A stretch of DNA of 64,000 nucleotides from assembly GCA_002803225.1 (NCBI GenBank), contig NXFV01001227.1, positions 1 through 64,000 on the forward strand, read 5' to 3'. This document shows positions 7,487 to 59,074 of the stretch, piece after piece; within the stretch, counting starts at the first letter, position 1, and every line of letters begins with the position of its first letter. Below the pieces are notes generated by a model. It saw only the letters and a program-made list of their open reading frames with translations. It was not told the origin of the DNA and searched no databases. Origin of the DNA: Gamarada debralockiae (lineage: Eukaryota; Ascomycota; Leotiomycetes; Helotiales; Hyphodiscaceae). Position numbers and translations under genes: made by a program.

Positions 7487-8607
7487 CTACAACACCGCCC
7501 CTTTCTTAAAGTCCTCCTTTTGGCCTCGAGAGTTCCGGGCAATCATCAAACAAGAATGCGTACTACTCGCAACCAACTCACCCTTCTCACTGTACAACTT
7601 CACCTCCATGTCGAACCTCCCATCTTTACACTCATTCATGACGGTTCGCTGTAGCAACCACTCCTCTCCCTTCGGATCCCTCCTAATATCCATTGACAGG
7701 CAAATAGTTGGAAATGCCCACTTCATGATGCCCTTAAGTCCACTCTTCTCGTAGTTCAGGGGAATATCTGGAATCTGTTTTCTGTCAGTGAGACTCTCCT
7801 GAATCAGGCTTTCTATTCGGAGATGGAGCAAGGAGGGCCAGAAGAGCCACGTACCAAATCCGCAATGAAGCCCAAGTGGGAATACTCGAAGCTGTCGTTG
7901 TCGTCGTCAAGCTTCACCCACATGTCCCTTCTGTTCTGCCCCACAGCTGGTGACCAGAGCGGATTCGGCCCTCCTTTGGGGACGTAAGAGCGCACTTTGG
8001 AGCTCGTTGGACTCAGGTTAAAGAACATGCTATCTATCCATCTCACACACTCTTTTTCCTTGTCCGGCAATCGAATGGCTGGAGGTGGTATGCTGTGGCC
8101 CTTTACATTTAGATTCCCAAGCGTGACGAGGGCAATTATACTCGGCCCAGCAGATGGAGCGTCTGAGGGTCTGAGCTCAACTTGGATCACTGAATGCTTT
8201 TTTCCGAGTTTGATGTCGGTGATTGACACACTGAAGGCGCCTTGAGGAAGGGGAGATAGATACTGGATGTGTATGTGTACCACATCCGGTTGATTTATGC
8301 CGGGATGTTTGGAAGATGTGTATTTCTGGCTTGTGAATATGATGACTGCTGCGCAGAGACCTCCATGGGTAACAAACCCAAGATCTCCTGAGTTTGAGCC
8401 AGTTAGCTACAGGTTGAAAGCTGGTTCAGGAGTTGGGTTCTTGCCTGGCGTACACCAATCGCGAGGTGCAAATCCTGTGAAACAATTATCTCTTCCCTCA
8501 ACGGCTTTTGTGGCTATAGCTTGAGGGAATGGGGTGGTAGGATAGCTGAGGGGACGCCAGTCGGGTGTCACTTCTGGGTGGCTGTTGGGGAGGTGTGCGT
8601 TTGCCAT
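7487..8607 (-). CDS. Thioesterase-like (acyl-CoA thioesterase fold) protein
   Basis: Hand-derived exons 8607-8445, 8387-7855 and 7774-7487 give about 327 aa, starting at the ATG of MANAHLPNS. The order of motifs fits the fungal thioesterase-like double-hotdog family: DWCTPG, then THGGLCAAV (the conserved HGG turn), then VHIHIQYLSPLPQG with a first hotdog strand set, and a C-terminal half with WLLQRTVMNECKDGRFDMEV and GELVASSTHSCLMI. It probably hydrolyses or binds acyl thioesters; the substrate is not visible. The first intron (8388-8444) appears to use a GC donor (GCAAGA). The second (7775-7854) is a normal GT-AG intron. It is transcribed in the same direction as the P450 gene downstream. 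Confidence 0.78.
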
Positions 8608-37315: not shown

Positions 37316-39490
37316 TCATGCGATCGTTACAACCTGCCTTGAAGCCCCTTCGAAGAAATCGCCAGCCTTGACATATAGGCTCGTCCATTTATTACTGCCA
37401 GAGCATCTTATGGGCACACTAGGATACCATGGGTGCCGTGAAAACATCCCTATCCGTTTGTACGAGCCCCCTTTCGGCTCTTGCTTCAATATAATCCCAC
37501 ATGAAGCCAACTTTGTCCTTAATATTTCGAGACAATAGACAGGAGTCCCTGATGGGAGAAACTCAGAGCTTCTACAATCTGAAATATCAGTGTCTGGACA
37601 AAAGATCATTGAGAAATATCTTCTGTCCAGCCTGCAGCAAAGAGTTCCGACAGCTTTGTTCTTAAGTATCGAAAGCTTCGCGGTAACTAAAGGACCAGAA
37701 ATTGTGATACGACCTTCAGTACAACGACCAAAGGGGTCGGTTCCCGAAGGAAAATAGCTCACGTCCATGACTTCCGCCAGCTGATTTGAGTATCTGGTAT
37801 TGAAATAGATGTTCCCATCTAACGACGCCCAAGACCAAGTTGGAGCTCTGTAACTCGTTGAACGAATCCCCAAACACCAATCATCCGGGGTGGCTTCGAG
37901 CTTCTGGTGATCCATCTCCGCCTTCCCAACATACCAAAGTAAGTGATATGGTAGATCGCGTTCCCAGATGCCAGCCAAATACCTACAATCTTTGAATCTT
38001 GCCATTCTCTGGGCTAAGCCAGAGAGTGCAGGTAGTTTATCTGACTGGAATGAGAGATCTAAGCCAGAATATGCTCTAACAACTGGTTCCCAAGGCTCAT
38101 AGTTCGTGGTATCCCGGACATAGCAGGAACTTGCCGCAAGCCTTATAGCATCGTTAAACATTACTTTTTGGATACCGAGGAGACGGTAATTCCTATCTTC
38201 TTCCAAACACTCGCACCTCCTTCGAGTCCGGCACTCCCACATGATTTCATCACACATGTAATCGATCGTTCTCGCGGCTAGAACACGTTCCTGGAGTGTC
38301 CACGCCCTGCTAAGCAAAGGGTTGAAACTAGCTATCGAGTTGTTTTTGCCTAGCTCTTTGAACTGGTACCCGTAGTATAGTCTTGCGTAGATATCGTTCT
38401 CACAATCTACGAGCCACGGCACAATAAGATCGATATCCTTGGTTTGGCGACTAGTCCCGTGTCTATCGTTGAACAATCCCCCATCTCCATCCTTCGAATG
38501 AGTTGCACATATAGTGAGATATGAGTTCTCATATATTTGAGCCATCTGTCCAGATTGAACTTCCCATTCGATTGGATCATCTTGTACAATGCACAATGAG
38601 TCGATCCAGATAAACTGAAAGCCGAGTCTTCGAGTAACTGTTATAGCGTCCCGATAGGTCTGGCTAAGATTCTCCCACTTGATCCCTTGTTGGTGATCTT
38701 TAAGATTCCGCAATGTGGTTAGTGCTCGGGACGGACCAGATCCCCAACAATGACTTAGAGTCAGATATGTCCCCAAGTGTCCTTGGGAGTCGTAGAGTCT
38801 GACATTATCACCCCTGACATCGACAAGTCTCGAAGGTAGGATGGAAATTCGACTCTGGGGGCAATTCTTATGCTGAGAGGAGCACTCATCCATCCAAGAC
38901 TTGATTGATTTGAAACAATCATCACTGTCTGAGAATCTTGGCACATCTGAGTAACACCCAACGTCCATTATCCAAGAGAATGAAGCTATTCATATTTAGC
39001 TGAAGCTATTATAAACTGAAGAGAAGGTAATACTAGACTTTGCATATAACTGCACAATGTTGGAGTGTCTTGCATCCACTCCTTCGAGATAGAGGAAGGC
39101 TAATTTTGGAAGTCTTTCGGATTTCTTTGACTGGGAGTTCTCCGCTGTCCCAGGTATGACTCCAATAATGACTTTCAAGTTGTTTGCTTCTATTGTGATA
39201 TAGCCAGTGCAAACCTCCTCGTGGCACTGGCATTTCTTCGTGACTGCGTGCCGCTGTATCCCAGTGAGGCCTTTCGTTAGTCGGAAGTGGATGATTGTTC
39301 TCATAAGAACAGAACAATTCGTACAACCTTTTTCACTGCCTCTGGATATACTCCACATATAGGTGGATAGCCACCAACTCTGTTCAGAGAGAGATTTCTC
39401 CTGGAGATTACGGCAATTGTCACAGACTCCATTTCGGATGGTGATCGTTTGATTTCGCTTCTCATTGTAATCCTTGATATTAAAAGACAT
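37316..39490 (-). CDS. Heterokaryon-incompatibility (HET) domain protein
   Basis: Two long frames, 39490-38996 and 38968-37316, probably one gene joined by an intron at about 38970-39060. I could not fix the donor; the best acceptor is the AG near 38988. The N-terminal part has paired cysteines (CDNCRNL, CTNCSVL), as is common before HET domains. The HET domain follows with its three blocks: YLTLSHCWG, then RRLGFQFIWIDSLCIVQDD..EW..QSGQMAQIYENS, and LLSRAWTLQERVLAARTI. The rest (PTWSWASLDG) is the usual poorly conserved HET C-terminus. HET proteins trigger cell death after fusion of incompatible hyphae, though most paralogues are untested. About 710 aa in total if joined. It is divergent from the MFS transporter gene. 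Confidence 0.85.
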
Positions 39491-40588: not shown

Positions 40589-42482
40589 ATGTCCATCAAG
40601 AACCACAACCACGACCTGTGTAAGTCCGGTACTCCTAATGAAATCGAGGAGATCGAAGTCATCCGCACCATTTCACGCGTCCCCGGGTACCCCAACTACT
40701 ATGAAAAGGAAGGCATACGAACTGAAGGCGATGGAGTGGATCATAGTCATTACAACGCGGTCAGTCCTCCCCAATCCTGTCCATTCTTCCCTGCTAGTTT
40801 GGCTTGATATCAAACCTGACCAGCACTAGCGATCTATCGGATTCATTATGACAGTGTTAGGCTGTTCCTTCGCCTTGACCGGGTCTCAGATAGCCCCCCT
40901 CCTCTACCTCACTCTTGGTACCACAATCGCCGTTGAGCTACATGCAACGGCGCTAACGTTTTGGATGTTTACCGCCATCATCGTAGCTATGGGCGCTCTG
41001 GCACCCTTTGTTGGCCCACTAGCAGATCTGATTGGCCGCAAGACTATCATTCTTGTGGGTCTTGTCTTCTCTATTAGTGGCGGCATTATCTGTGCTGCTA
41101 CGCCAACTGCGGCAGGTTTCATCGCCGGCCAGTGTATTCTTGGCTTTGGCGCCGTCATCCAAGAACTCCTGGCCATCGCCGTTGTCGTAGAGATTGTCCC
41201 CACCTCGAAACGCAGTCTGTATGCTGCATTGGTACTTTGTGCCATCCTCCCCTGGTCTCCCGGCACACTCTATGCGAACTGGCTGGCTGATTACAGCTGG
41301 CGATGGATTGGTTGCATCGTGGCTATCTGGAATATGCTGACCTTGGCCATCATTGCCTTCTTCTATCGTCCCCCTCCTAGAGTGAATTCGCTCGGACTGT
41401 CTCGAAAGGAAATGTTGGGTCGGATCGACTTCGTTGGAGGAATTCTCATCACAATGGGATTGGTCTTCTTCCTAGTCGGGCTCAATTGGGGCGGACAGGA
41501 TTACCCATGGCGGTCAGCTCACGTCCTCTCGTTTCTCCTCATAGGCTCCTGCTTCATGATAGGCTTTGGCCTCTGGGAACTTTTCGGCGCTCGCTATCCC
41601 CTTTTCCCTCGTAGGATGATTCCTGCGCCTAGGCCATTCTTCTGCTTGCTTTTTGTCATCTTTGCAGCCGGTATCAACTATGTCCCGCTGGTCGTGTTCT
41701 GGCCGATCGAATCCATTAGCGTGTTTGGGTCGGACCACCACCAAACTGGAATTAATGCCCTCCCTATCGCAACATGTATTTTGGGGGGTGCGATCTTGTC
41801 AGCTCTCCTCATTGGGGCGTTCAAAAATTACGTCACGCTAATCATGACCTGCTTTTGTGTGATGCAAGTAGTCGGTAAGTCGCCCATCATCGAGCAATTT
41901 GATCATTTTACCGTTTTCAGGCCGTGGGCTCATTGATTATTAGCATCTGCTTGTCTCACAATCATCAACCCTCAAGACATCCGCACAGCTTGGCCTCCTA
42001 TCGTGCTGGCCTTGATTGGGGTTGGCGGGGTGCTCGTTCCCAACCAAGTCATCATAACTGTCATCATTCCCGACGACCTCATTGCGTCAGTGACAGCACT
42101 GACGGTGGGTTTGCGATCGCAGGCTCAGGTGATTGGACTGGCCATCTTCTATAACCGCTTTGTGCACGAGGTGACCCAAAATGCCTATAAGGAGGTGGTG
42201 CCAGCCATGCTTGCCGTCGGAGTCTACAATCCAACCGTGATCGAGGACTTGGTGACTAGCCTCACTGCCGTACCCTTCTACCAATACGCGCCCTTGATCC
42301 CCGAGCTCAACATTACAGCCAATTACGAGCTCGTCAAAGAGGCCACCATTCAATGCTTCTCGCAGTCCTTTGTTCTCGTCTATTACATTACGATTCCGTT
42401 CGGGGTCGCGGCTTGTATTGCGGCAGCTTTTATGGGAGATGTATCAAAGTATATCGATAATCATGTTGCCATTGGGCTTTAG
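40589..42482 (+). CDS. Major facilitator transporter, TRI12 / siderophore-type family
   Basis: Exons 40589-40759, 40830-41874 and 41944-42482 give 584 aa. About 14 membrane segments, which is the size and topology of the TRI12 group (fungal efflux pumps for toxins or siderophores). MFS signature A is GPLADLIGRKTIILVG, and the later conserved motif is SWRWIGCIVAIWNM. The first exon codes for a hydrophilic cytosolic tail (EIEVIRTISRVPGYPNYYEKEG). The second intron (41875-41943, GTAAGT) joins MQVV to ASACLTIINPQ and skips an in-frame TGA. Substrate unknown. It sits 2.2 kb left of the first UstYa gene and could export the product of that cluster. Confidence 0.87.
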
Positions 42483-43929: not shown

Positions 43930-44664
43930 GTTTGGTCGCGGCGTCTTTTGGACGTTACAGGTTTTCTTGTCAAAAAGCCAGAAAGAGGAACAAAGTTATA
44001 GTTGAAATAGGTCTTGCGATATGAGGTCCCTTTTCTTCTGTCTAGGCAACATCCGCCAGGGAAATCGCTTGGACGATTAACCCTGTTCCCTTGTTTATGC
44101 CGGACCTTAGACCAAAAAGGACGGTAGGATAAAATCAGCAAAAATTCTTAATTCTTAATTCTGAATGATCTTTGGACAAGTTATTAAGACAAAAGACGAC
44201 TGTCTTATTGGGCAGTGTCAGGAATTGCTTATATAATCGGCACCTCAGTAGAGTGAACAATCTAACCTACGCTACAACGACTTGATGACTTTCCACTGCC
44301 AAGACCTAAAACCCTGACAGGCAGGAACGATATGAAACGCATGATGCGGTCGCGAAAGTTGGTCCTCCACCCTCCTTGCTTTACTTTTATTTCTGTAACC
44401 ATTTCGAGTATGGCCCCCTGTGAATTCATTGCAACCCCCCCGAATTCTGGCATGGGGTATGATCAGGCGTGAGATTGTGGACTCATTCGATGTTATCAAT
44501 GAGGATTGGTGAACTGGAATTCAAAATCATTCAAGGTTTCTACCCGGACCGACCATACGAATGCGGATCCAGTGATTGGCAGGTTAGTACTTACTAAAGG
44601 TAGCTGATGGTTATTGTTTTAGGTCTAGGAAGTTAATTGAAACGTAGGGACGTAAACTTGGTTT
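43930..44664. other. Intergenic, no gene seen
   Basis: The frame at 44262-44499 has no motif. This is the 3' flank of the first UstYa gene and the promoter side of the 2EXR relic. Confidence 0.5.
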
Positions 44665-45740
44665 CTATACTACACTATCTCCAATTCTTTGACCCTCTTG
44701 TGGTCGTAATGGGTCCTCTACTTTAGTATGAAATTCAAACTTTCTTAATCTATGTTCAACCGCCCACTCTTGAATTTTCTCGAAGTTACGACAGGTATGG
44801 GTTACTTCGGCATACACGCGTGCTCCTGGGTTCTTGTGCCAGTCTTCCCACCTCCAATAATGTGTGCTAATGTCCGAGTGGCAAGTAATGAGTTGCCGGA
44901 TCGAGTCGACACAGTGTTCTGGGTTCAGTCAGTCAAACGAACTTAGACATTATTTCTAGGTCTAATAAAAGACGAAAATAGAACCATACCTAAGTGTTCC
45001 ATACTTATTTCTCTTAGATGATTACCATCCCACATCGTCCAGTTGTAACGTTCGGGGTATAGAGCTCGACGGACGATGTTCTAATCTAGGTTAAAGCACG
45101 GAGCAAAAGAAAATAAGATGACGTTGTAACTTACCAGGCAGTGGAGTTGGTGGAAAACATCTAACATAACAATATAATTATCCTCATCGCCAGGGACTGG
45201 AACAGTCCAGTTTGTGAGTTGTGCTGCGTCGGAACGATGAATTTTGTTGATTCCGGCTAAAAAATTATGAGCAGTTAGACATATAATGAACAAGAGCGAT
45301 AAAAGAGCCAAAATTGAAAGTACTCACCTTTATACAAGTCTTCCCAAGCTAGATCAGTGCTATCATCTGGGAGTCCGCCTTCTTTCGGGGGCATGTAAGG
45401 AGTGCGTGGGCTCCGTTGAGCCTGGAAGGTGACGGTCTTGTACTCCACAACGCCATTTGCAGGAGCTGTTTTGCCGTTAGCAAAGCATCTGAATGAAGAG
45501 TAGAAACATCGAAGCATTACAAAACAAAGCCAGAGTGGGATCTCGCGGAAACATTAGATACCAAAACAACGCCAACACAAGAACCGCATTGACTAGGTAT
45601 AATATGAGGAAATGTCCATTTCGGGTAGTCCAAGAACGCCACGACTTGTTCTTTTTTGTAGGATCTGCTCTCTGAGAGTATTCTTTCTGCTCCGGACACA
45701 GCAGTGCCTCTGTCGACTGCACATCATCCGGGTCATCCAT
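44665..45740 (-). CDS. UstYa-family (DUF3328) oxidase-like protein 1
   Basis: Five exons: 45740-45521, 45465-45328, 45256-45135, 45080-44990 and 44918-44665, giving 274 aa. Type II membrane topology: about 40 polar residues, then one TM (FLILYLVNAVLVLALFWYLM). The lumenal domain starts SPANGVVEYKTVTF. Both UstYa metal-type motifs are present: FHQLHC (exon 3) and EHCVDSIRQLITC, re-formed across the exon 4/5 junction. The 71-bp intron 44919-44989 is supported by that motif. UstYa proteins catalyse oxidative cyclisation or chlorination and similar steps on fungal RiPPs such as ustiloxin and on cyclochlorotine. Orientation and gene structure match the next UstYa gene upstream (46806-48014), so the two are paralogues. 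Confidence 0.88.
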
Positions 45741-46805
45741 CCTTGCAACAAATACTCGATTTGATTTGGATATTAGGAGAAGAGCACTCGAGGAAGAAGT
45801 TTCTATGACGCAGATTTATTTGAAGAACGACGAGAGCGGTGACAGCAAAAATTGGTATTACCTTCGCGTGAGCACCTTAGCGTAAATGTATGTATCTTAT
45901 CAAGTCGAGAAGGTCTCATTCACCATTGCTGGCAAATCATTTGTAATGATGGCCGCTTTAAGAACATGTCAAGTGAACAATGACACCTATAGACATGCTT
46001 TGTGGAGCTTTTGGAACTTATCCGGGATGACGGAAAGTGCGAGAAATCACAGTGGGGCATGAGTCAGTTAGTAATCTCTTATTTTAAGAGGAAATTGCGG
46101 GGCATTTACTCTAAAAGGAAATTGTACACGAGGTATTTTGCGGCATGAGGAGCGGTGAGCTATGGGGGAAAATTAGGCATCGGTTTAAGCTTTGTGATTT
46201 CAATTCTGAGATGAGGATAAGCTGAAGGAGGTCAGGGGCAAATGAGGGGCAAGTGGGGTGGGAGCTTCGGAATTCTTCTACGTCGACTATACCGATATTA
46301 GGGCCGAGCTTTAAGCTGAGCTTGCAGTAGTAACGTAAAGTAAGGCTTAGATAGATAGGCTATTGAGAGTAGTCGCCTGATAGGCTTTTCCAAATATATT
46401 GCTACATAGTACGTATAGCACTGCCTAGTACTACATCGGCTTGAGATATCGTCACCGACTTTACTGTACCCACGGAGAGTTGACCGAGACGGGCAGGATT
46501 CGAAGGAGCTAGCGCCTTTACTACTGCTGACATACAGGTAAGCTGAGTACTACATAGTCCTTTGCTTTCACATCATTCGCGAGGCATCATTGCTTATCTT
46601 ACTAAAAAAATACGCCTACTAGCCTTAGTTATGAAGATAACTATAGTTATAGGTTAATGGTAATTACCGTTTGGCGGAGCAAGACCAGTCCTCGTATCTC
46701 CAATTATTACTATTCGTTGGGCACTTCTGCCTCGGATGAAAACATCTAACATGCATTTGGAGACAAATCTTATTTGATATTAAACAAGTCCAATCATAGG
46801 ATCTG
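45741..46805. promoter_or_regulatory. Spacer between UstYa genes 1 and 2
   Basis: About 1.1 kb, AT-rich in places, no coding signal. Contains the promoter of UstYa gene 1 and the 3' UTR of UstYa gene 2. Confidence 0.5.
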
Positions 46806-48014
46806 CTACTGCCTAGCTTGGTTTGAATGCTTGTTGTCCTGCATTTTCACCCAAGCTGGTTCTGCCATCTGCTTTGCTCCTTCTGGTTTCCTTAGATGAG
46901 CATAGCTTTCGGGTCGATTTGCGTGCTCTTGATTCCACTCTATGAGAGCTTCATAGTCTCGACATTTGTGCTGGGTATTGAAGTCGGCCGACAGCCTTGG
47001 ATATCCTTCGACCCATACACCGGTGATTAATGTGACATCTGCGCTGCACATAACTACCTGACGCAATATATCGACACAATGATCTGTTAAGAGAGACACC
47101 TTAGCATAAAAAATATCATTTACCGAGTTATATTATATGTAACGACTTTGTAAAAGAACGTACCTAAGTGTAGTCGCAATAGTTGCTCGCCATCAGTGAA
47201 TGCCTGCACAGTATCTTCGTAGTACTCCCTGTATGTATATTGCCTCAGAAAATTCTATGGCTTAATTCAGTATGTGGTTTCCAAAGGCTCCAAAAGGATG
47301 TTTCATTTCAACTTACTACGCAATGCATCTGGTGAAACATTTCAAGTCCAGCAACATATCCGCCCCCAGTTTCTTCTGGGAACTTCACAGCATACTCCAA
47401 ATTCTCAGTCTTGTTGATCCGGTGCATAACGTCCTCATCCACGGCAAAGTTACCGCCTATAACAAAATTTATTAGAACAAGCCCGTAGTTGAAGTGAATA
47501 GTGGTTGATTACCATGAATCAGACGGTCCCATGCTTCTTCCAGTTCAGGCCGAGGTGTGCCTTTGTAGACATTTTTCAGATCAAATGTAGCTTCGAATTC
47601 ATACGTCTTGTACTTGATAGCATCAAGAGCAGGTGCTTTTATTAATTAGCTTTAGAAAATCAATACAATTGAGAGTGACAAACAGTAGGTGGACACTTTC
47701 TCATTGCAATGAGCATCAAAGTGCCTATTTTCCTCCCTTGCATATTCCAGGGTCGCCGTGGACTGCAATTTGGCAACGTGGGCAGATATGAAAAGAACGA
47801 TGGCCACTGCAAGAACCGCGAAGTTGATTGCAAACACCCATAGATGTGAAATTCTTGCAACGTCTCGTCGCAGATAATGAAATTTAGCCAGAGTTTGACC
47901 GTTCTGAGTTAGGAGGGTAGTTGAAGATGCATTGCCATCGGATTGCTCTTTGAATTCCTGGTCCTCCAGGTCAGTTGTCTCGACAGGTTGATATTCCGCA
48001 TTTTGAATAGCCAT
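46806..48014 (-). CDS. UstYa-family (DUF3328) oxidase-like protein 2
   Basis: Five exons: 48014-47684, 47635-47513, 47456-47317, 47254-47164 and 47083-46806, giving 320 aa. I use the ATG at 48014 (MAIQNAEYQPVETTD); the frame runs open upstream but without an ATG. One TM (LWVFAINFAVLAVAIVLFI) follows a polar tail of about 60 residues. Splicing restores STYSPALDAIKYKTYEF. The motifs are FHQMHCV in exon 3 and DHCVDILRQVVMC in exon 5. Exon 4 is 91 nt, exactly as in UstYa gene 1, and the intron phases agree, showing common descent. It is divergent from the RiPP precursor gene, with 674 bp between start codons. Confidence 0.88.
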
Positions 48015-48688
48015 GTTGAGAAGGCCATACAATTCGGTAGAAAAAGGTGGACAGAACTTCGCTATAGAATATGAAGTGTACAGTACTTCGTTTGTACGAA
48101 TGTGAAGTTTTTTTTCCACCTTTCCGCATATTATTGTACCTCACCGTGGCAATGCCGGATGCTCAATAAGCCGTCTAAGCCGTTCTGGCGGCTTGTGCCC
48201 GACAGCAAAGCTAGACATGGGTTCTGCTGATTACAGTGAATATGCATATTATTAGTCTGAGAATATATCCGCTAAGTTCTAGAATGATTGCGCTAATGTT
48301 CTTGCTAATTAGTCACTTCAAGGGTTGCAAGGGATTAAGTGGACAATTATTTCCTTTTCGAGGCATGCAAAGACTTAGCAGGTTCCCAGGGGCGCGGATG
48401 GCGAACAGATGCTAACTTATGCCCCGATTTGGAGTAAGAGCCGAGGCTTAGAGCGGATGCATAGCAGCTATACTTTTTAGAACGCACGAGACTCAGGTTC
48501 TGGGGTTGCGAAAACCATCTTGGACTTTCGTTGAATCTTACCAATTCCCTGATATATAACACCAACCTTTCATTGCCGCAGGATAACCCGTCCAGCAACA
48601 ACGAACGAAAAACTCTGTTTCAACGCTGGAAATTTTGAATACTAATTGGAGTCAATCTCTAAGTCACCATCCACTGTCAAACAACAAA
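48015..48688. promoter_or_regulatory. Bidirectional promoter of UstYa gene 2 and the precursor gene
   Basis: 674 bp between divergent start codons. The two genes probably share regulation. The frame at 48347-48601 has no motif. Confidence 0.55.
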
Positions 48689-49044
48689 ATGAAGATCCTC
48701 AAATTCGCCGCATGCGCCACTTTGGCTGCGGCCATTTCTGCAGTTGCCATACCTGTCACATTTGGAAATGTTCGTGGTCCTAAAATATTTTCATATTTGA
48801 ATACAATGTTTCCTACTATAGTTTTGATGTTTAATTCTTACAGTGAAAGCTTACCGTTGACTTATGATAGATTGAAAAGGTGGAGACAAGCTTGCTCAAA
48901 CGCTCTCCTATTGAGTCCGACTTCTATGACAAGGACGAGAAACGTTCTCCCATTGAGTCCGACTTCTACGACAAGGACGAGAAACGCACTCCCATCGAAT
49001 CCGACTTCTACGACAAGGACGAGAAGCGTTCTGTTCTTGAGTAA
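48689..49044 (+). CDS. Secreted RiPP precursor with three Lys-Arg-bounded repeats (dikaritin-like)
   Basis: Proposed exons 48689-48769 and 48871-49044, 84 aa. Exon 1 is a signal peptide (MKILKFAACATLAAAISAVA). Exon 2 reads EKVETSLLKR and then three units of [S/T]PIESDFYDKDE, each followed by Lys-Arg, ending SVLE. Lys-Arg is the Kex2 site used to cut fungal RiPP precursors such as UstA. Each unit has one Phe-Tyr pair, and Tyr is the usual crosslinked residue in dikaritins. The intron is the least certain part: donor GTTCGT, acceptor ATGATAG, and a small middle exon is possible. The Lys-Arg frame itself is supported by six synonymous third-position differences among the repeats against one replacement (Ser/Thr). 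An alternative frame, open from 48635, reads the repeats as SPTSTTRTRN and is rejected. Confidence 0.75.
48898..49029 (+). repeat. Three tandem 42-bp core repeats plus a terminal Lys-Arg
   Basis: Units at 48898-48939, 48940-48981 and 48982-49023, each coding KR[S/T]PIESDFYDKDE, then KR at 49024-49029. The copies differ at Arg (CGC/CGT/CGC), Pro (CCT/CCC/CCC), Tyr (TAT/TAC/TAC), Ile (ATT/ATT/ATC), Glu (GAG/GAG/GAA), the following Lys (AAA/AAA/AAG) and Ser/Ser/Thr. Confidence 0.95.
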
Positions 49045-49708
49045 AAATGCCATGTTAGACCATCACACAGTACAAAGAGACAGAAATTAGGTTTTGGGGG
49101 ATTATGCAATCATGGGCAGTGCAGTGTTCTCTTAAGCCTTTCTTCTCAATTTTTGTACTATTAGAAGGATGAAACGAACCTAAAGTACGGATGGACTATG
49201 GGATTAAAGCCAATGAAAGAAAATTCCCGATTCTAGCAATTCAAGCACATGTGTATTTGAGTCATCTCTTCAGCTATGATTGGCGGAAATATGAGTGATC
49301 CAGGAGCTGAACTTTGAAACCTTCCGCTAAGCGTCGTATTTACATTCTCAGCACTAGGCTGAGGGCCCACAGGTTATGTTTGTCATAGCTCAAAGAATTC
49401 ATTATTAACAGAATTATTTATCTTCTTCATTGCATTAGTATGGAGGCGAATTTCTCAGCGGTGAGCCAAAATCAGAGCTTATGATGCGAGCTGACACTAC
49501 ACTGTAATCGAAAAAGAGAGTTCCGCTTACTAATTTTGGTAGTAAAAACAGCGTTGGAGCTAGGCTTGACCAGGCCCGCTAGACAGATTCCAACGACACA
49601 TAGGATTTTGTCCGTTTTTGCGCTCCCTTGTCTGTTAATTGTTTACTCCTCTATCTCTTTCAACCTCAGTCTACTTTTGACGTTGATCAACGGAAGAAAT
49701 TCACGGGC
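49045..49708. other. Spacer between the precursor and UstYa gene 3
   Basis: About 660 bp, no coding signal. The open frame reaching back to 49628 starts at TTG, so it is leader or promoter of UstYa gene 3. Confidence 0.55.
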
Positions 49709-50562
49709 ATGATGATTGGGAACAATTCGTTGCAGAATTCCAGTCACGACGAGGGAGAATATCTGATAGAGGACAAAGATATCGAAAAACATGTTCTACC
49801 GCCCTCTCGAATATACCACAAAATAAAGGCTCATTCTGTAATCGAATCCTGCAGTTTTATTCTTTCAATTCTATTGTGTGTTCTATTATTGTTAAACTTG
49901 GTTGTCATGTTCAACAACTCGAAATGCGACCCCGGAGAAACAATTTACACCAAATATCACAAGGATACGAGATACATGACTCTTGACCATCAATACGATC
50001 ACCTCTGGGATGAGTTGTCGTCAAGTAATAGGGGGGTGATACAATTTTCTGCTGCTACTAACGGCAGTGATGCAGACGTCGCAGGGCTTAGCATGTAAGT
50101 ACGAATTCAATTCTCCTTAGAAATTTTTATTCTGCAGCACAAAAATATCATATTACTGAAAACTTAAAAGGCTAAATATAAACACCAAGGTTCCATCAGC
50201 TCCACTGTTTGTCTTCATTTCGGAAAGCACTTCAGGACGCGTATGAAGGAAAAGAAGTTGCATTTGATAATACCGAGAACAAGCACTGGCCGCACTGCTT
50301 GGATTATTTGCGAATGGTATTCAATTATATTTCATGACATTATAATAATGCTATCGGAGCTCATGCTGATTACCTGGAGTAGACCATCCTTTGCTTTGCA
50401 GACGATACTCTTGAACGACCTGTAATCAAGAATGGGACAGTAACGGACACAATCAACGGACAAGATGACATTCGCCGCTGTAATTCAGTTGAACGACTTT
50501 ACGATCTCGTCGAAACAAAAGGGCTACATCCGTTTCGAGACTCTCAGCCTCATACCGTATAG
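49709..50562 (+). CDS. UstYa-family (DUF3328) oxidase-like protein 3
   Basis: Three exons: 49709-50094, 50190-50316 and 50383-50562, giving 230 aa, starting at ATG 49709 (MMIGNNSLQNSS). One TM (FILSILLCVLLLLNLVVMF) follows about 55 polar residues. The 95-bp intron restores MFHQLHCLSSFRKAL, the first motif, and exon 2 carries KHWPHCLDYLRM, the second. Exon 3 continues TILCFADDTLERP, the usual UstYa block, and RRCNSVERLYDL. Its exon pattern and sequence differ from UstYa genes 1 and 2, so it is a more distant family member. It is 0.7 kb downstream of the precursor on the same strand. Expected in the ER/Golgi lumen. Confidence 0.87.
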
Positions 50563-52773
50563 AGGTTACAGGTGCACTTAGGAGCAGTGGTATTGTTTAT
50601 AAGCCATGATTAAGTCTTGGACCAAGAATGGAAAGTCAGACGCCTGTTGATCTTCATTTGGTACAGCTCGTAAATCGTTGCTGTAAGCTGGGGATGTCGT
50701 GTGACGGGTATTTAGACTTGAACTTGGAGAACTTGTGGATGTGCACATTGCCTGTGGTGTAGTAGAAGAGGAATGAAAAGTATGCTTGGTCCAGGGGGTG
50801 GGGTGGGGATACGTCTTTGGGAGACTGCGAGGAAAGTAAATATGAGTGTCATTTCAAGGTTACCGCTACTCTTTAACATGGCTTTAAGGCGGGCTCTCCT
50901 TTCCCAAAGAAATTTTTTTTTAATTACCTTACAATACGAGTTTCGCTTTAGAAGACGATATGGCTGAAGACCGCTATTCCTATGCAAGTTGAAAAGGTGA
51001 GAACGGGAGAAGTGCTTCTCCCGGGTTCATAGTTCCAACTGAAGTTTGGGGCCTTGGGCTACCCCGATTCGGCAGCTGCTTTTCATATTTCTCAACTCTT
51101 GAGGCAACTGTAGTTTTATTTTTAATTGAGCCCTCTAACTCTGCCCTAGGCAACCAAACACGGGTTTTGAGATGGCAATGACAGATGCACTCCAGCAAGA
51201 TCTCACTGCCGAGGAATAATCTCCCGGTCCCAACAATGCAATTCTAGTTGACTTATTTGGTTGTGACTCTCAGACATCCACATTACGAAAGATCGCAATC
51301 GTTCAGCAGTTGGGGAAATAACCTTGATTACTGTAAAGAGCAATGTGACCTGGCACTCGCCACAAAGCTGAAATGTTCCAGCGATATTGTTCGCATTGCT
51401 CAACTTCTTTACGATTCTGAGAACACAAGGGAATCAAAGATAAAGGGTGAGTGCTGCACATACTTTGAATGAAGACATCAGTAATGGTCTTATCTACCCC
51501 ATGGATGTGGTTGTTTGGCCTAGCTTGATAATGTTTGTTAGTCAGAGTAGAGATTTCGAGGACGTTTTGACAGGAAGACAGATGATTCTGACGGTGGACT
51601 TGACGTATTGTTGGCAGCCGAATTCAGCAACATGAGGGCGTTGGCTGTGGTGCATTTGAAGTTGGAGAAATTGTTCAATGCGTGTAATATTGAGAGGATA
51701 TCAGGAATGCTTTTTTTTGGTTTTGGGGGGGGGGGGACCCGAACTTGGCAGAAGAGTCTCCACATTCCATTACACATCGTTCTTGCGTTCACAAAGGAAA
51801 AAGTATGTATTTACAGTAGGTAATATGTCCATTACCGATGCTTCGCAGTCAGCTCTGGCTACCAGGATGGATCAAAGAAACGATTCAGAAATTGGCACCC
51901 CACTTTTCCAGGGTTAGATAACGTGTCTAATAAACAGTTTGAAAAGAAGTCAGGAAAGTAATGCTTGACGAAAGCACCGAAGTGCAAAGGTCTAGCGATA
52001 GAAGAGTGCCAGATCGAGAATTTACACTAATGAAGGGACCGGCTCGTCCCCATCAAGCAGATGTTTGTAAAACTCAGCCAAGGGATCGAAGAGATGGTGC
52101 CTCAATGTTCATCAATACACGTCCTTGTTCCGTGGCACACCTCCCTTCCAATGCAGTAAAAACCGGAAATTCCCCAGATAGCACAGACCTCCAGCCAAAA
52201 ACACAGAATCCGCGTAGCCGCAGTCGCAACAAAGACGGGGTAAAGTTACTCCCCGTCTAGGCATCAGCATGACCATGGCGGAAATTACCCAGCCCTACAT
52301 CCGCATTCACCCCTGCAGTCCAACCTCGCTTACAAGATTGCGGTGAAGTATGAGATAGAGTTAAAATTGACGTCCACTTCGCCTGAGTAAAGGACGCTGC
52401 AGCGCTTGTAGTGAGAAGAAGCTCACATGTGAGGGGAAAGAGTTCTGGAAAGTACTGGACTAGGTGACAAGCCCCAGTCTCCAGTGCTCCGAGAAGCAGA
52501 GCTTGAAAATTATTGTGATCATATATGTTGTTTTCAACGATCAGTCTGCGCAGTAAATGTTGGTGTTCAATAGGACGTCGGCAATTGGCTGTTTCGCGCA
52601 GTCTCCGACACCGCTCCATCTCACTGCATCGTCAATCACAGACCGTGTCGATGAACTTTCAATACTCAGGACCCGCAGTGTTGATTCAAGGCAACTCAGA
52701 CACTATTATTTTTGCTCAGCTTTCTAAGCTTTGCGAGGTGTATCGAGATATGTTCGAAGTACGATAGCCCTAG
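50563..52773. other. Accessory intergenic region, no gene recognised
   Basis: Several open frames (50712-50987, 51248-51472, 51608-51823, 51961-52260, and 52257-52619 on the minus strand) lack domain motifs and conserved residues that I recognise. A run of 12 G lies at about 51726-51737. It may hold decayed gene remains. Confidence 0.4.
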
Positions 52774-54496
52774 TTGAAAATGACAGACGCAAGTTCATTC
52801 CAAGACGATCTTCCAACACGTTCGTTCAAGTCCAATAATGGCTGCGACTTCTGCACTCTCGTGTGGGCAATCACATGGGACAGAGATGTGAAATATGAAA
52901 CTGAAACCTTGTACGCGCTGAGCGTGCTTTGGGGCACTCCAGAAGAGAGATTCCAGTCTCAGGTTCTGGTAATTCGTCACCAGTGTAACTTCTCACTCCT
53001 ATTTGTGAGCGTTGACTTTGCCTTAATTGATAGTGGTTCATTGGTTGATTTTCTTCTCGTAGTGGCACAGGTTCGCTGACATGGTGAGACTCCGATGGGA
53101 AGTTTAATAGAGAGCATCATCAAAGTTTGACGAGCACTACGTCCTTCTCTACGGAGAGCAACCTCATTCTCTGCCGAAATTGGTACGAAACTTGCAAAGC
53201 AGAACGCAAGGGCTGCTATCTTCAAACTGGCACCGACTATCGGGCTCCCAACCCGATTGTTAGATCTTGAGACTTCACAAGATGTTGTCCGACTTTGTCT
53301 CGGTAAAAATCTTCTCGATCAGCCTTCCTATATGATTTTAAGTCACTGCTGGGGCAAGTCGGGACTTGATGGGGAGTTTAAGATGCTAACAAATTCCACT
53401 TTGGGATCTCTCATGAGTGGAATCTCAATACAAAATCCAAGTCACACTTTTCAGGAAGCCATATTCGTCACCGGGAGCTTAGGAAGTAGATATCTATGGA
53501 TTGATGCCTTGTGTATCATCCAAGGAAATGCGGAGGACTGGGAGAGAGAAAGCGCTTCAATGACGATAGTTTATGAGTTTTCTCAGCTCAACATAGCAGC
53601 GTCGGCGGCAAGCAAGGGAGTGAGGGGTATTTTCAGGATCCTGATCTCATCCGAACTGTCAAAGTCAACATCGCGATGGATGTCTCAAATTCACGAGGTA
53701 TGGCCGCTCTCTGTAGTCCAAACTGGCTTCACCTTACGGCTCAGATACAAAGTTCCCCACTTGCTCAACGGGTATGGGTTTTTCAAGAAACTTACCTGGT
53801 CGCACGGACTCTGTATTTCACAGGCACTCATATTTGGTGGGGTGTGTACAACATATGTGCTGCGAGACGTTTCCTCGAGAACTTCTCTGCAAAGGGTGGA
53901 GGCCAACAATTCCAAGCTCGAAAGAAGGCAATCATGGGGGTTATGAACCACTGATACAATATAGTCAACCTCTTTTCAAAAGGTTGTCTCATCTTCGAGT
54001 CTGACAAGCTTGTATCATTATCCGGTGTAGCAAAACATTATGCTCAGCTGTACAAAATGATAGGAGACTATCTCGCGGATCGGTGAGACCGTACCTTATT
54101 GATGAAATTTGTTGGGTTCCAGAAGGCTGTTATCGTTCAAGTAGACATCACCCTATCCCAACTTGGTCATGGGCTTCGGTCATCCCCATGGAAGACTATA
54201 AAGACAAATTAAACAATGACAACTTCGGTAGTGTCACTCACTGTTATTTGAGACACCAGAGAAGTCAACTCCAACTCCGTGCCAAAGTTCTCGGATCAGA
54301 GGTAAAAGGGGTCCATGAACCCTATGGACCAGTACAAGGAGGTTTCATACGGCTGAAGAGTAAAGCTCTAATCCACTGGACCCTTGGCGACATGACAATG
54401 GACCAACCGAGCCATAATATCTTCATGCCAAGATGTTCTCTTGGATTTTGCCATAGGAAGAAAACCCTTCTGACGCAGTGTAACAGCTACAGGTAG
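52774..54496 (+). pseudogene. Decayed HET-domain gene
   Basis: Pieces of one HET protein lie in order but in shifting frames. CDFCTLVW (52774-53079) is the usual Cys-rich start. 53257-53946 carries YMILSHCWGKSG, SLGSRYLWIDALCIIQ..DWERESASM and IYEF-like sequence. From about 53690 the signal moves to another frame with SPLAQRVWVFQETYLVARTLYFTG (the third HET block). From 54083 another frame has RPYLIDEICWVPEG and PIPTWSWASV. Introns could explain one of these changes but not all. There is a stop soon after the first piece. Probably non-functional. Confidence 0.68.
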
Positions 54497-57277: not shown

Positions 57278-57818
57278 TCAACTAGCGAACCGCCGCTTCT
57301 CGCCATACGGGCACAAAACGCGGGTGGGTAGAATCATCTCCTGGAAGATCCAGCTTCGGTTGAAGAAGGATTGCCATAATAGCTGGAGGTATGCCTCATA
57401 GTCGAGCTCGGCCACTTTCCACACCACCTTTGAATCTGGTATTACAATCGGGGCTCCGAAAGACGAACCCGTCGTTCGGATCACTGCCGTTTTGAGGGAC
57501 TCTAAGATAGGCTATTGCACCGTTTAACTTGCTGTAGATATCCTTCATGAGAGGAATCTGCGTCACCTTTTCCTCGTCGTCCTTATGATTGTTGCAAACC
57601 GCATCTGCCCAAAGAGAAAGGCCTTCACCTCGACAATAAATCTCAGTGGTATTGTTGATGACCGATGCGAAAAAAGTACGGAGAACTCGTGCCAGGTTGG
57701 TGGTTAAGAGGAGACGCTGGCCGTTACATGCTATGGATGAATCATCTCTGGTTTGCCCCATAGGTAGGAGAGTGAGATAAAAGGAGGTGGATTTATCAAG
57801 GAAATGGTTCATTGTCAC
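57278..57818 (-). pseudogene. Fragment of a second HET-domain gene
   Basis: 57818-57396 reads LSLWADAVCNNHKDDEEKVTQ..LMKDIYSKLNGAIAYL, which is HET block 2 (compare IWIDAICINQ). The frame then shifts, and 57484-57278 reads LLWQSFFNRSWIFQEMILP, block 3. The preceding 5' part (block 1, LSYCWG-like) and the C-terminus are missing. A frameshift near 57440 and the absent ends mark it as a relic. Confidence 0.65.
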
Positions 57819-59074
57819 GATTACCGTGGCATCTTCATGAAGTCTCCCTCAAAGATGAAGCTTTGATAAGACAGATTTCTTGGGTGTCTTTCTTCAAATG
57901 TTGTTACTCGAAGGTGGATAAGTCAAAACATGATTGAAGTTGCCCAGGATTCCGTTCTCTATTGCGATTCACAGGAGGCGAATCCTGGCGTCGTCTCTGG
58001 GACCTCCCCCAGAGGGTTTTCCCAAATTGGCCGCCATCGGTTATGGTGCGTGATATTTGAATCCCTTTTCCAAGATTGTATGAGTTGGACAAATGCTGAA
58101 GTTTCTTGTTCGACAGTTCTGTTAGCCATAATTGTCTTAGAGGCCTTGATGCGCAGAGTGAGAACTTATATGGCTTCGTAAAAAAGAGGCTGCCAATAAT
58201 AAAGGCGGATGTACTACTACAGCCACAAAACTTTTCTGCGACAGAAAAAGCAATCTGCCCGCCTCTTTCATTCGAAGTGATAGTGTCAGGCGCCTTGAAA
58301 TATACCAAGCAATTATTAGATCTCTTGTAAAACTTTGAAGGGCGCTATGCATGCTGAACATGCCGTCTTACTAATGAAGAGGACTTCCGTTTTACCCCTT
58401 GGATAATTACTAAAATTAACTATGAGATTCTTTCAAAGAGCGACTGTTGCTGCTGGTCATGATACGAAACATCACACAAGATGTGATATCCTCTGCATAT
58501 ACACGCCACAGCTGAAACATTACTGTCCTTACAAGCCGACGTAATATCTTTATGATACCCCCTAAATTCTGAAGCAATGCTCGTGTGCACAAGCAGCTAA
58601 GCAAACTTCCCACTTGCAGGCTCAAGACGTTTAATCTGCTTGATCAGCAGTACTGTCTTCAAACAGAGGTTCCATATTGCGTCAATCGCTGACCCCAATG
58701 AAGGTTGTGGAGTCGAGGCACTTGCACTTCTACGACCTCTTAAATTCTACCATATAGCGAATGGAATTGAAGAACTTATTGAATTGTGGTATATGTTATG
58801 AGCTAAGTCTGTCCATTCTCGTGTCAAGGGCGAGATCCAGACATATGTAGTAGCAAGTATCCATCCGCCATCGACATCCATCATGAAAAATATGTGTAGC
58901 AAATACTCTCTCTTCCTTCCGATCTCTTCCCTTCGTAAATAGCCATGTGCATCGTAAGCAAGATATGTCGTCCGTCCAATCCAGAATCGTACTCAAACTC
59001 AAACATCATACTCGTCCATCCAGCAACATACACTCGTATGCCTCCCTCTCACTGATGGTCTTGACAATAAGCAA
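57819..59074. other. Intergenic, no gene seen
   Basis: The frames at 57904-58308 and 58137-58361 have no motif. Right half is the 3' flank of the rec8 gene. Confidence 0.5.

Follow-up and report, generated by a model that had tools for sequence, protein, structure and literature searches.

Asperipin-2a of Aspergillus flavus is described as the product of four genes (aprA, aprY, aprT and aprR), namely a precursor, one UstYa enzyme, a transporter and a reductase, none of them a tyrosinase, and the single UstYa enzyme is credited with the bicyclic product (PMC6514808). For such ribosomally synthesised and post-translationally modified peptides (RiPPs) there is precedent that Kex2 of the Golgi cuts the repeat-bearing precursors and that UstYa (DUF3328) enzymes oxidise the peptides (PMC7329392, PMC6514808). 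Cyclisation of ustiloxin and phomopsin is reported to require a tyrosinase as well, with further enzymes in the ustiloxin pathway (PMC7329392, PMC6514808), and an older five-gene definition of the dikaritins includes tyrosinase, methyltransferase, transporter or peptidase (PMC12048977). Three UstYa homologs take part in cyclisation and desaturation in the phomopsin pathway, according to a 2022 review that counts only five reported peptides of the class (PMC10512285). Here, we analysed 64,000 bp of the Gamarada debralockiae genome (bases 1-64000 of contig NXFV01001227.1, C581 in our numbering; hereafter the window), the assembly searched comprising 54.3 Mb in 1112 contigs. We consider it probable that a locus at 44665-50562 constitutes a compact UstYa-type, dikaritin-like RiPP gene cluster, which on comparison with described systems is best read as a small one of the asperipin type.

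The locus holds four genes in the order UstYa A, UstYa B, precursor and UstYa C, the introns of all four having been placed by hand:

44665-45740, minus strand: UstYa gene A, 274 residues, five exons, motifs HQLHC and HLEHC; PF11807 match, E 4.1e-46
46806-48014, minus strand: UstYa gene B, 320 residues, five exons, motifs HQMHC and HLDHC; PF11807 match, E 1.5e-59
48689-49044, plus strand: precursor gene, 84 residues (spliced model, repeat codon test, hydropathy, Tandem Repeats Finder)
48689-48769, plus strand: precursor exon 1
48770-48870, plus strand: predicted precursor intron, 101 nt, donor GTTCGT (poor), acceptor GATAG
48871-49044, plus strand: precursor exon 2
48904-49029, plus strand: three 42-nt repeat units, SPIESDFYDKDEKR (copies 1 and 2) and TPIESDFYDKDEKR (copy 3)
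49709-50562, plus strand: UstYa gene C, 230 residues, three exons, motifs HQLHC and HWPHC; PF11807 match over residues 115-210, E 6.6e-19

An earlier note on this DNA had delimited the cluster by the same outer coordinates, and both do fall on the last bases of stop codons, that of gene A on the minus strand and that of gene C on the plus strand. Its description of a signal-peptide gene with three Lys-Arg (KR)-bounded repeats, lying between two minus-strand UstYa genes and one on the plus strand, is upheld by the spliced models, and the two HxxHC motifs that it saw in all three enzymes are indeed there (3/3), together with a PF11807 match in each. UstYa B and the precursor point away from each other across 674 bp, and genes B and C flank the precursor directly, one on each side, three DUF3328 genes lying within 4 kb. 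In a published catalogue of KEX2-processed repeat proteins (KEPs), DUF3328 counts peak directly adjacent to the KEP genes (PMC7329392), and the adjoining UstYa genes of the window match this peak.

The predicted precursor begins with MKILKFAACATLAAAISAVA, an ordinary-looking secretion signal as judged from hydropathy and its AVA context, followed by a short pro-region ending in LLKR, two copies of SPIESDFYDKDE-KR, one of TPIESDFYDKDE-KR and the tail SVLE. Four KR sites bound the three units (consensus [S/T]PIESDFYDKDE-KR), each with a highly acidic core containing one Tyr (position 8), one Phe and one Ile, and in 3/3 units an SP or TP dipeptide directly follows KR, as a single X-Pro and not as the repeated run often seen in pheromones. 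Tandem Repeats Finder reported a 42-nt array of 3.2 copies with a score of 214. Of the seven sites at which the three copies vary, six fall on the third codon position (P 0.007 under random placement), and the sole amino-acid variation between them is one Ser/Thr change. When the copies are compared in their three pairings, 14 codons differ in the KR frame, 12 of them silently, as against 0/11 in each other frame. The pattern is direct evidence for translation in the KR frame.

A scan for KR-bounded repeated peptides, which requires that a single open frame contain two similar units and which split, diverged or single-core precursors escape, found only the precursor gene within the window, and the same scan of 280,340 shuffled bases gave 0 matches, a single-base shuffle being a mild control. 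The repeat exon, when searched against the whole genome, matched itself alone. A Pfam search of the precursor gave no match, hence no MF_alpha domain.

Each UstYa model has exactly two HxxHC motifs and one strongly hydrophobic 19-residue stretch near the N terminus; in their alignment both motifs are kept, as are a Cys ten residues past the Cys of the second motif and a later Cys. The weakest PF11807 match of the three is that of gene C, and the least certain intron placement is the first of gene A, for which there are seven in-frame choices. Identity to UstYa A is 29% for B and 23% for C, values on which we rejected the idea that one UstYa gene had recently been duplicated in tandem. When compared by tblastn with the UstYa regions fetched from the rest of the genome, the three enzymes found distant paralogs only; gene A did best at region L026 (about 46-53% in pieces), where the KR-repeat scan found no repeat gene.

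Among the described systems asperipin-2a is the closest working model for the cluster, since no tyrosinase match lies on the contig. Shared with it are the small size, a KEX2-type repeat precursor, a UstYa oxidase, the lack of a tyrosinase and, should the nearby transporter belong to the cluster, a transporter (PMC6514808), and both cores contain an FY pair (PMC6514808). In contrast to the asperipin cluster, the present one has three UstYa genes, not one, with no reductase found, and its unit is 14 residues long where that of asperipin is 8, the core being otherwise unlike FYYTGY (PMC7329392). The epichloecyclins of Epichloe (gigA cluster) resemble it in a Kex2-site repeat precursor, a DUF3328 gene, a four-gene cluster and an Ile that precedes an internal Tyr in the core, but their cluster is described with its own kexin gene, 27-residue repeats and one DUF3328 gene (PMC9233826, PMC7317419). 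Ustiloxin B and phomopsin share the signal-peptide repeat precursor and the several UstYa genes (two and five, respectively; PMC7329392), yet they need a tyrosinase and carry EDYXI in their repeats (PMC7329392, PMC6339444); neither was found at the cluster, and a product of ustiloxin or phomopsin type was rejected on both counts. Victorin of Cochliobolus victoriae also comes from a multi-core precursor that is probably Kex2-processed, but it is chlorinated and has a ring that links a C-terminal Phe with an internal Leu (PMC9233826).

With respect to the dikaritins, the locus has the signal peptide, the repeats separated by Kex2 sites and the DUF3328 genes with two HxxHC motifs (3/3), while of the older definition the tyrosinase (on contig C581) and the methyltransferase (among the open reading frames, ORFs, scanned around the cluster) are missing. 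The statement that ustiloxin, asperipin and phomopsin clusters combine exactly these two gene types, on which the earlier note relied, does not hold, given the tyrosinase needed for ustiloxin and phomopsin and the transporter and reductase of asperipin-2a (PMC7329392, PMC6514808). Its remark that the core was not recognised from a named product stands: the unit and its pieces were absent from the open full texts searched, a scope outside of which lie supplementary tables and most subscription papers. The kind of cluster is already known, and an unrecognised core is a common case, because thousands of KEPs have been catalogued (7878 in 1345 of 1461 strains, 22% of them with DUF3328 genes nearby and 2560 without a homolog; PMC7329392) and nine dikaritin clusters have been reported in Venturia inaequalis alone (PMC9632046). 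Tyr is reported in 65.6% of the repeats of DUF3328-linked KEPs, compared with 38.2% for other KEPs (PMC7329392). It is the small number of known peptides set against thousands of predicted precursors that gives the cluster its value, and with four or five genes and a single Tyr, Phe and Ile in each core it is a clean and convenient case in which to test where these enzymes act and for what reason three of them were kept.

Provided that the genes are expressed, the precursor would enter the secretory pathway, Kex2 would cleave after each KR and a carboxypeptidase would strip the KR, leaving three near-identical dodecapeptides. A kexin-type P-domain gave one match in the genome (contig C647), as it also did in 1 of 14 control genomes, and no kexin gene was found at the cluster. 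The three membrane-anchored UstYa enzymes would, by analogy, be binuclear copper oxidases that form dimers in the lumen and oxidise the peptide; the DUF3328 protein CctR is reported to be a membrane-associated homodimer with two coppers per monomer at its HxxHC pair and to require O2 (PMC12435403). The side chain of the sole Tyr (position 8) would most likely become bonded to another residue at an sp3 carbon, with Ile-3 or Phe-7, again by analogy, as the most plausible partner. Because the three UstYa enzymes are unlike, the peptide probably undergoes more than a single oxidation. The product, whatever its biological role might be, may then be exported by an MFS protein encoded close by.

The X-Pro that opens each unit suggests a variant of this route, which we hold to be unlikely, in which STE13/DPPIV-type trimming of X-Pro would precede ring closure by the UstYa enzymes. 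Clipping would erase the sole difference between copies, so that all three became the decapeptide IESDFYDKDE with Ile at its start, and the ring would be closed between Ile (or its neighbour) and the now internal Tyr-6. In residue order such a peptide would resemble the epichloecyclins, which are stated to have Ile first and Tyr internal (PMC9233826). X-Pro or X-Ala after a Kex2 site is the signature of STE13 trimming, which a survey of 250 secretomes found to be generally dedicated to Ascomycota alpha pheromones and reported in none of the toxic cyclic-peptide and epichloecyclin precursors described by then (PMC6339444). Some precedent for a mixed type comes from homologs of putative basidiomycete pheromones, 17/76 of which have DUF3328 neighbours (PMC7329392). 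We rate the variant low because one Pro that predates duplication of the unit explains the X-Pro equally well. The computed [M+2H]2+ values are 722.809 for linear SPIESDFYDKDE, 729.817 for linear TPIESDFYDKDE and 630.767 for IESDFYDKDE, falling to 721.802, 728.809 and 629.759 on loss of 2 H. Trimming at the N terminus would be distinguishable by mass alone, and if it occurs, pheromone-style trimming would be joined to UstYa cyclisation, a pairing reported absent from the cyclic-peptide precursors then known (PMC6339444).

Around the cluster the following genes were identified:

40589-42482, plus strand: MFS transporter of TRI12 type, candidate exporter (start-to-stop span)
37319-38989, 53131-53943 and 57399-57848: HET-domain genes, flanking the cluster to left and right

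These come from a scan of 32 of the 36 ORFs of at least 110 residues between 31.5 and 62 kb (the other four being the cluster's own frames) and of 13 shorter ORFs beside the cluster; window-wide, 47 of 104 ORFs of at least 110 residues were scanned. The transporter is recognised from the ORF at 40830-41933 (PF06609, E 3.8e-20; PF07690, E 1.4e-17), the following ORF at 41937-42479 matching PF06609 with E 0.0021, under the cut-off. Its end is separated from UstYa A by 2.2 kb, and the gene may belong to the cluster as exporter. The proposal of a RiPP cluster in the earlier note remains the best reading, founded on the KEX2-type repeat precursor and the UstYa enzymes; the transporter, the X-Pro start and the sister repeat genes described below had been overlooked there, and the existence of thousands of such clusters had not been taken into account. 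A P450 fragment about 39 kb away was left out of the cluster. Just past gene C, a 76-residue ORF (51203-51433, minus strand) gave an Erv1/Alr thiol-oxidase match with E 0.0032, below the Pfam cut-off and probably due to chance.

Several observations weigh against a RiPP cluster at this locus. A change of frame and upstream stops make a splice at 48770-48870 necessary, but this predicted intron, which links signal peptide to repeats, is where the precursor model is weakest: its donor GTTCGT is poor, and a splice-site scan gave no above-threshold donor in the gene. Unspliced, exon 1 continues in a second open frame (48587-49087, plus strand) through intron and repeats, a reading that was rejected since 0/11 copy differences are silent in it. 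The unit lacks the EDYXI pattern of ustiloxin and phomopsin repeats (PMC6339444), and its core is highly acidic; tyrosinase (PF00264) has 24 matches genome-wide and 0 on contig C581; and no methyltransferase, peptidase or NmrA-type reductase was found among the ORFs scanned between 31.5 and 62 kb, where small exons were partly scanned. DUF3328 genes are also found in polyketide and nonribosomal clusters (PMC12048977). Finally, protein-database searches with the precursor and with UstYa B gave no match; the database probably lacks fungi, because UstYa B, from a family with many known members, went unmatched too, so that the miss for the precursor is uninformative. Searches of the Protein Data Bank returned no credible relative (SDC1, E 0.24; AsbF, E 0.0088, from a three-row profile and taken as chance).

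These points leave room for two other accounts of the locus. The gene might encode a KEX2-processed repeat protein releasing unmodified linear, pheromone-like signals, with the adjoining UstYa genes serving another product: for 78% of catalogued KEPs the 15 nearest genes include no DUF3328 gene (100 minus 22%; PMC7329392), each unit opens with the X-Pro that the secretome survey ties mainly to Ascomycota alpha pheromones (PMC6339444), and the genome has one DPPIV-type match, in a 953-residue open frame, a family that also matches in 5 of 14 control genomes and is hence not specific to STE13. We nevertheless regard this as quite unlikely, as the precursor has a UstYa gene for its immediate neighbour on each side, while KEPs annotated as mating factor or pheromone are reported without them save for three exceptions (PMC7329392). 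The missing MF_alpha domain points the same way, and the lone X-Pro may have arisen by chance and become fixed ahead of the unit's duplication.

Chance adjacency of the repeat gene and the UstYa genes, in a region that is variable and flanked by HET genes and with the repeat gene perhaps silent or decaying, appears highly improbable. The flanking HET genes and the poor donor would fit it, as would the low GC content (0.417-0.434 in the four 2-kb bins of 44001-52000), although the bins at 8001 and 32001 are equally low. The TpA/ApT ratio is read as an index of repeat-induced mutation, and its value of 0.83 across the cluster falls within the 0.49-1.02 of the rest of the window, so no marked mutation of this kind is indicated. 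Moreover, each of the four genes gives an open model over its full length, and the copies differ by silent changes only, apart from the one Ser/Thr.

Genome-wide, PF11807 gave 67 matches (exon pieces counted apart) on 27 contigs including C581. So many UstYa matches, together with the introns and the HET genes, would suit a filamentous fungus. A dense UstYa array at C304:62629-74320 (regions L010 and L011) accounts for 10 match rows, exon pieces again counted apart, within 12 kb, and the KR-repeat scan found no repeat precursor there. Altogether 20 other UstYa regions, touching 16 of the 26 other PF11807 contigs, were scanned for KR repeats, and precursor-like repeat genes were present in three. 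The scan returned eight rows, of which the window gene, L009 (the same place), a second frame of L013 and two rows of L020 (two frames of a single Lys/Glu-rich ORF that does not resemble a precursor) were dropped. Pieces of these sister repeats were absent from the open full texts searched. At C497:4003-4503 (L013), on a contig with several UstYa matches, a signal-peptide-like start is followed by five KR-bounded units of about TNIYPSVGFKGDPDEKV, likely another RiPP precursor. KR-bounded repeats of two alternating hydrophobic unit types, NENVIWIILAYDE and NENIILAFLAYADE, lie between UstYa matches at C1048:24206-24823 (L017:206-823). Those at C993:57723-58403 (L021:3723-4403), with UstYa matches near, also alternate between two unit types, one with the Cys-containing DEDLDNVICLK. 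The genome thus has at least four repeat-plus-UstYa loci, the present one included, with cores unlike one another.

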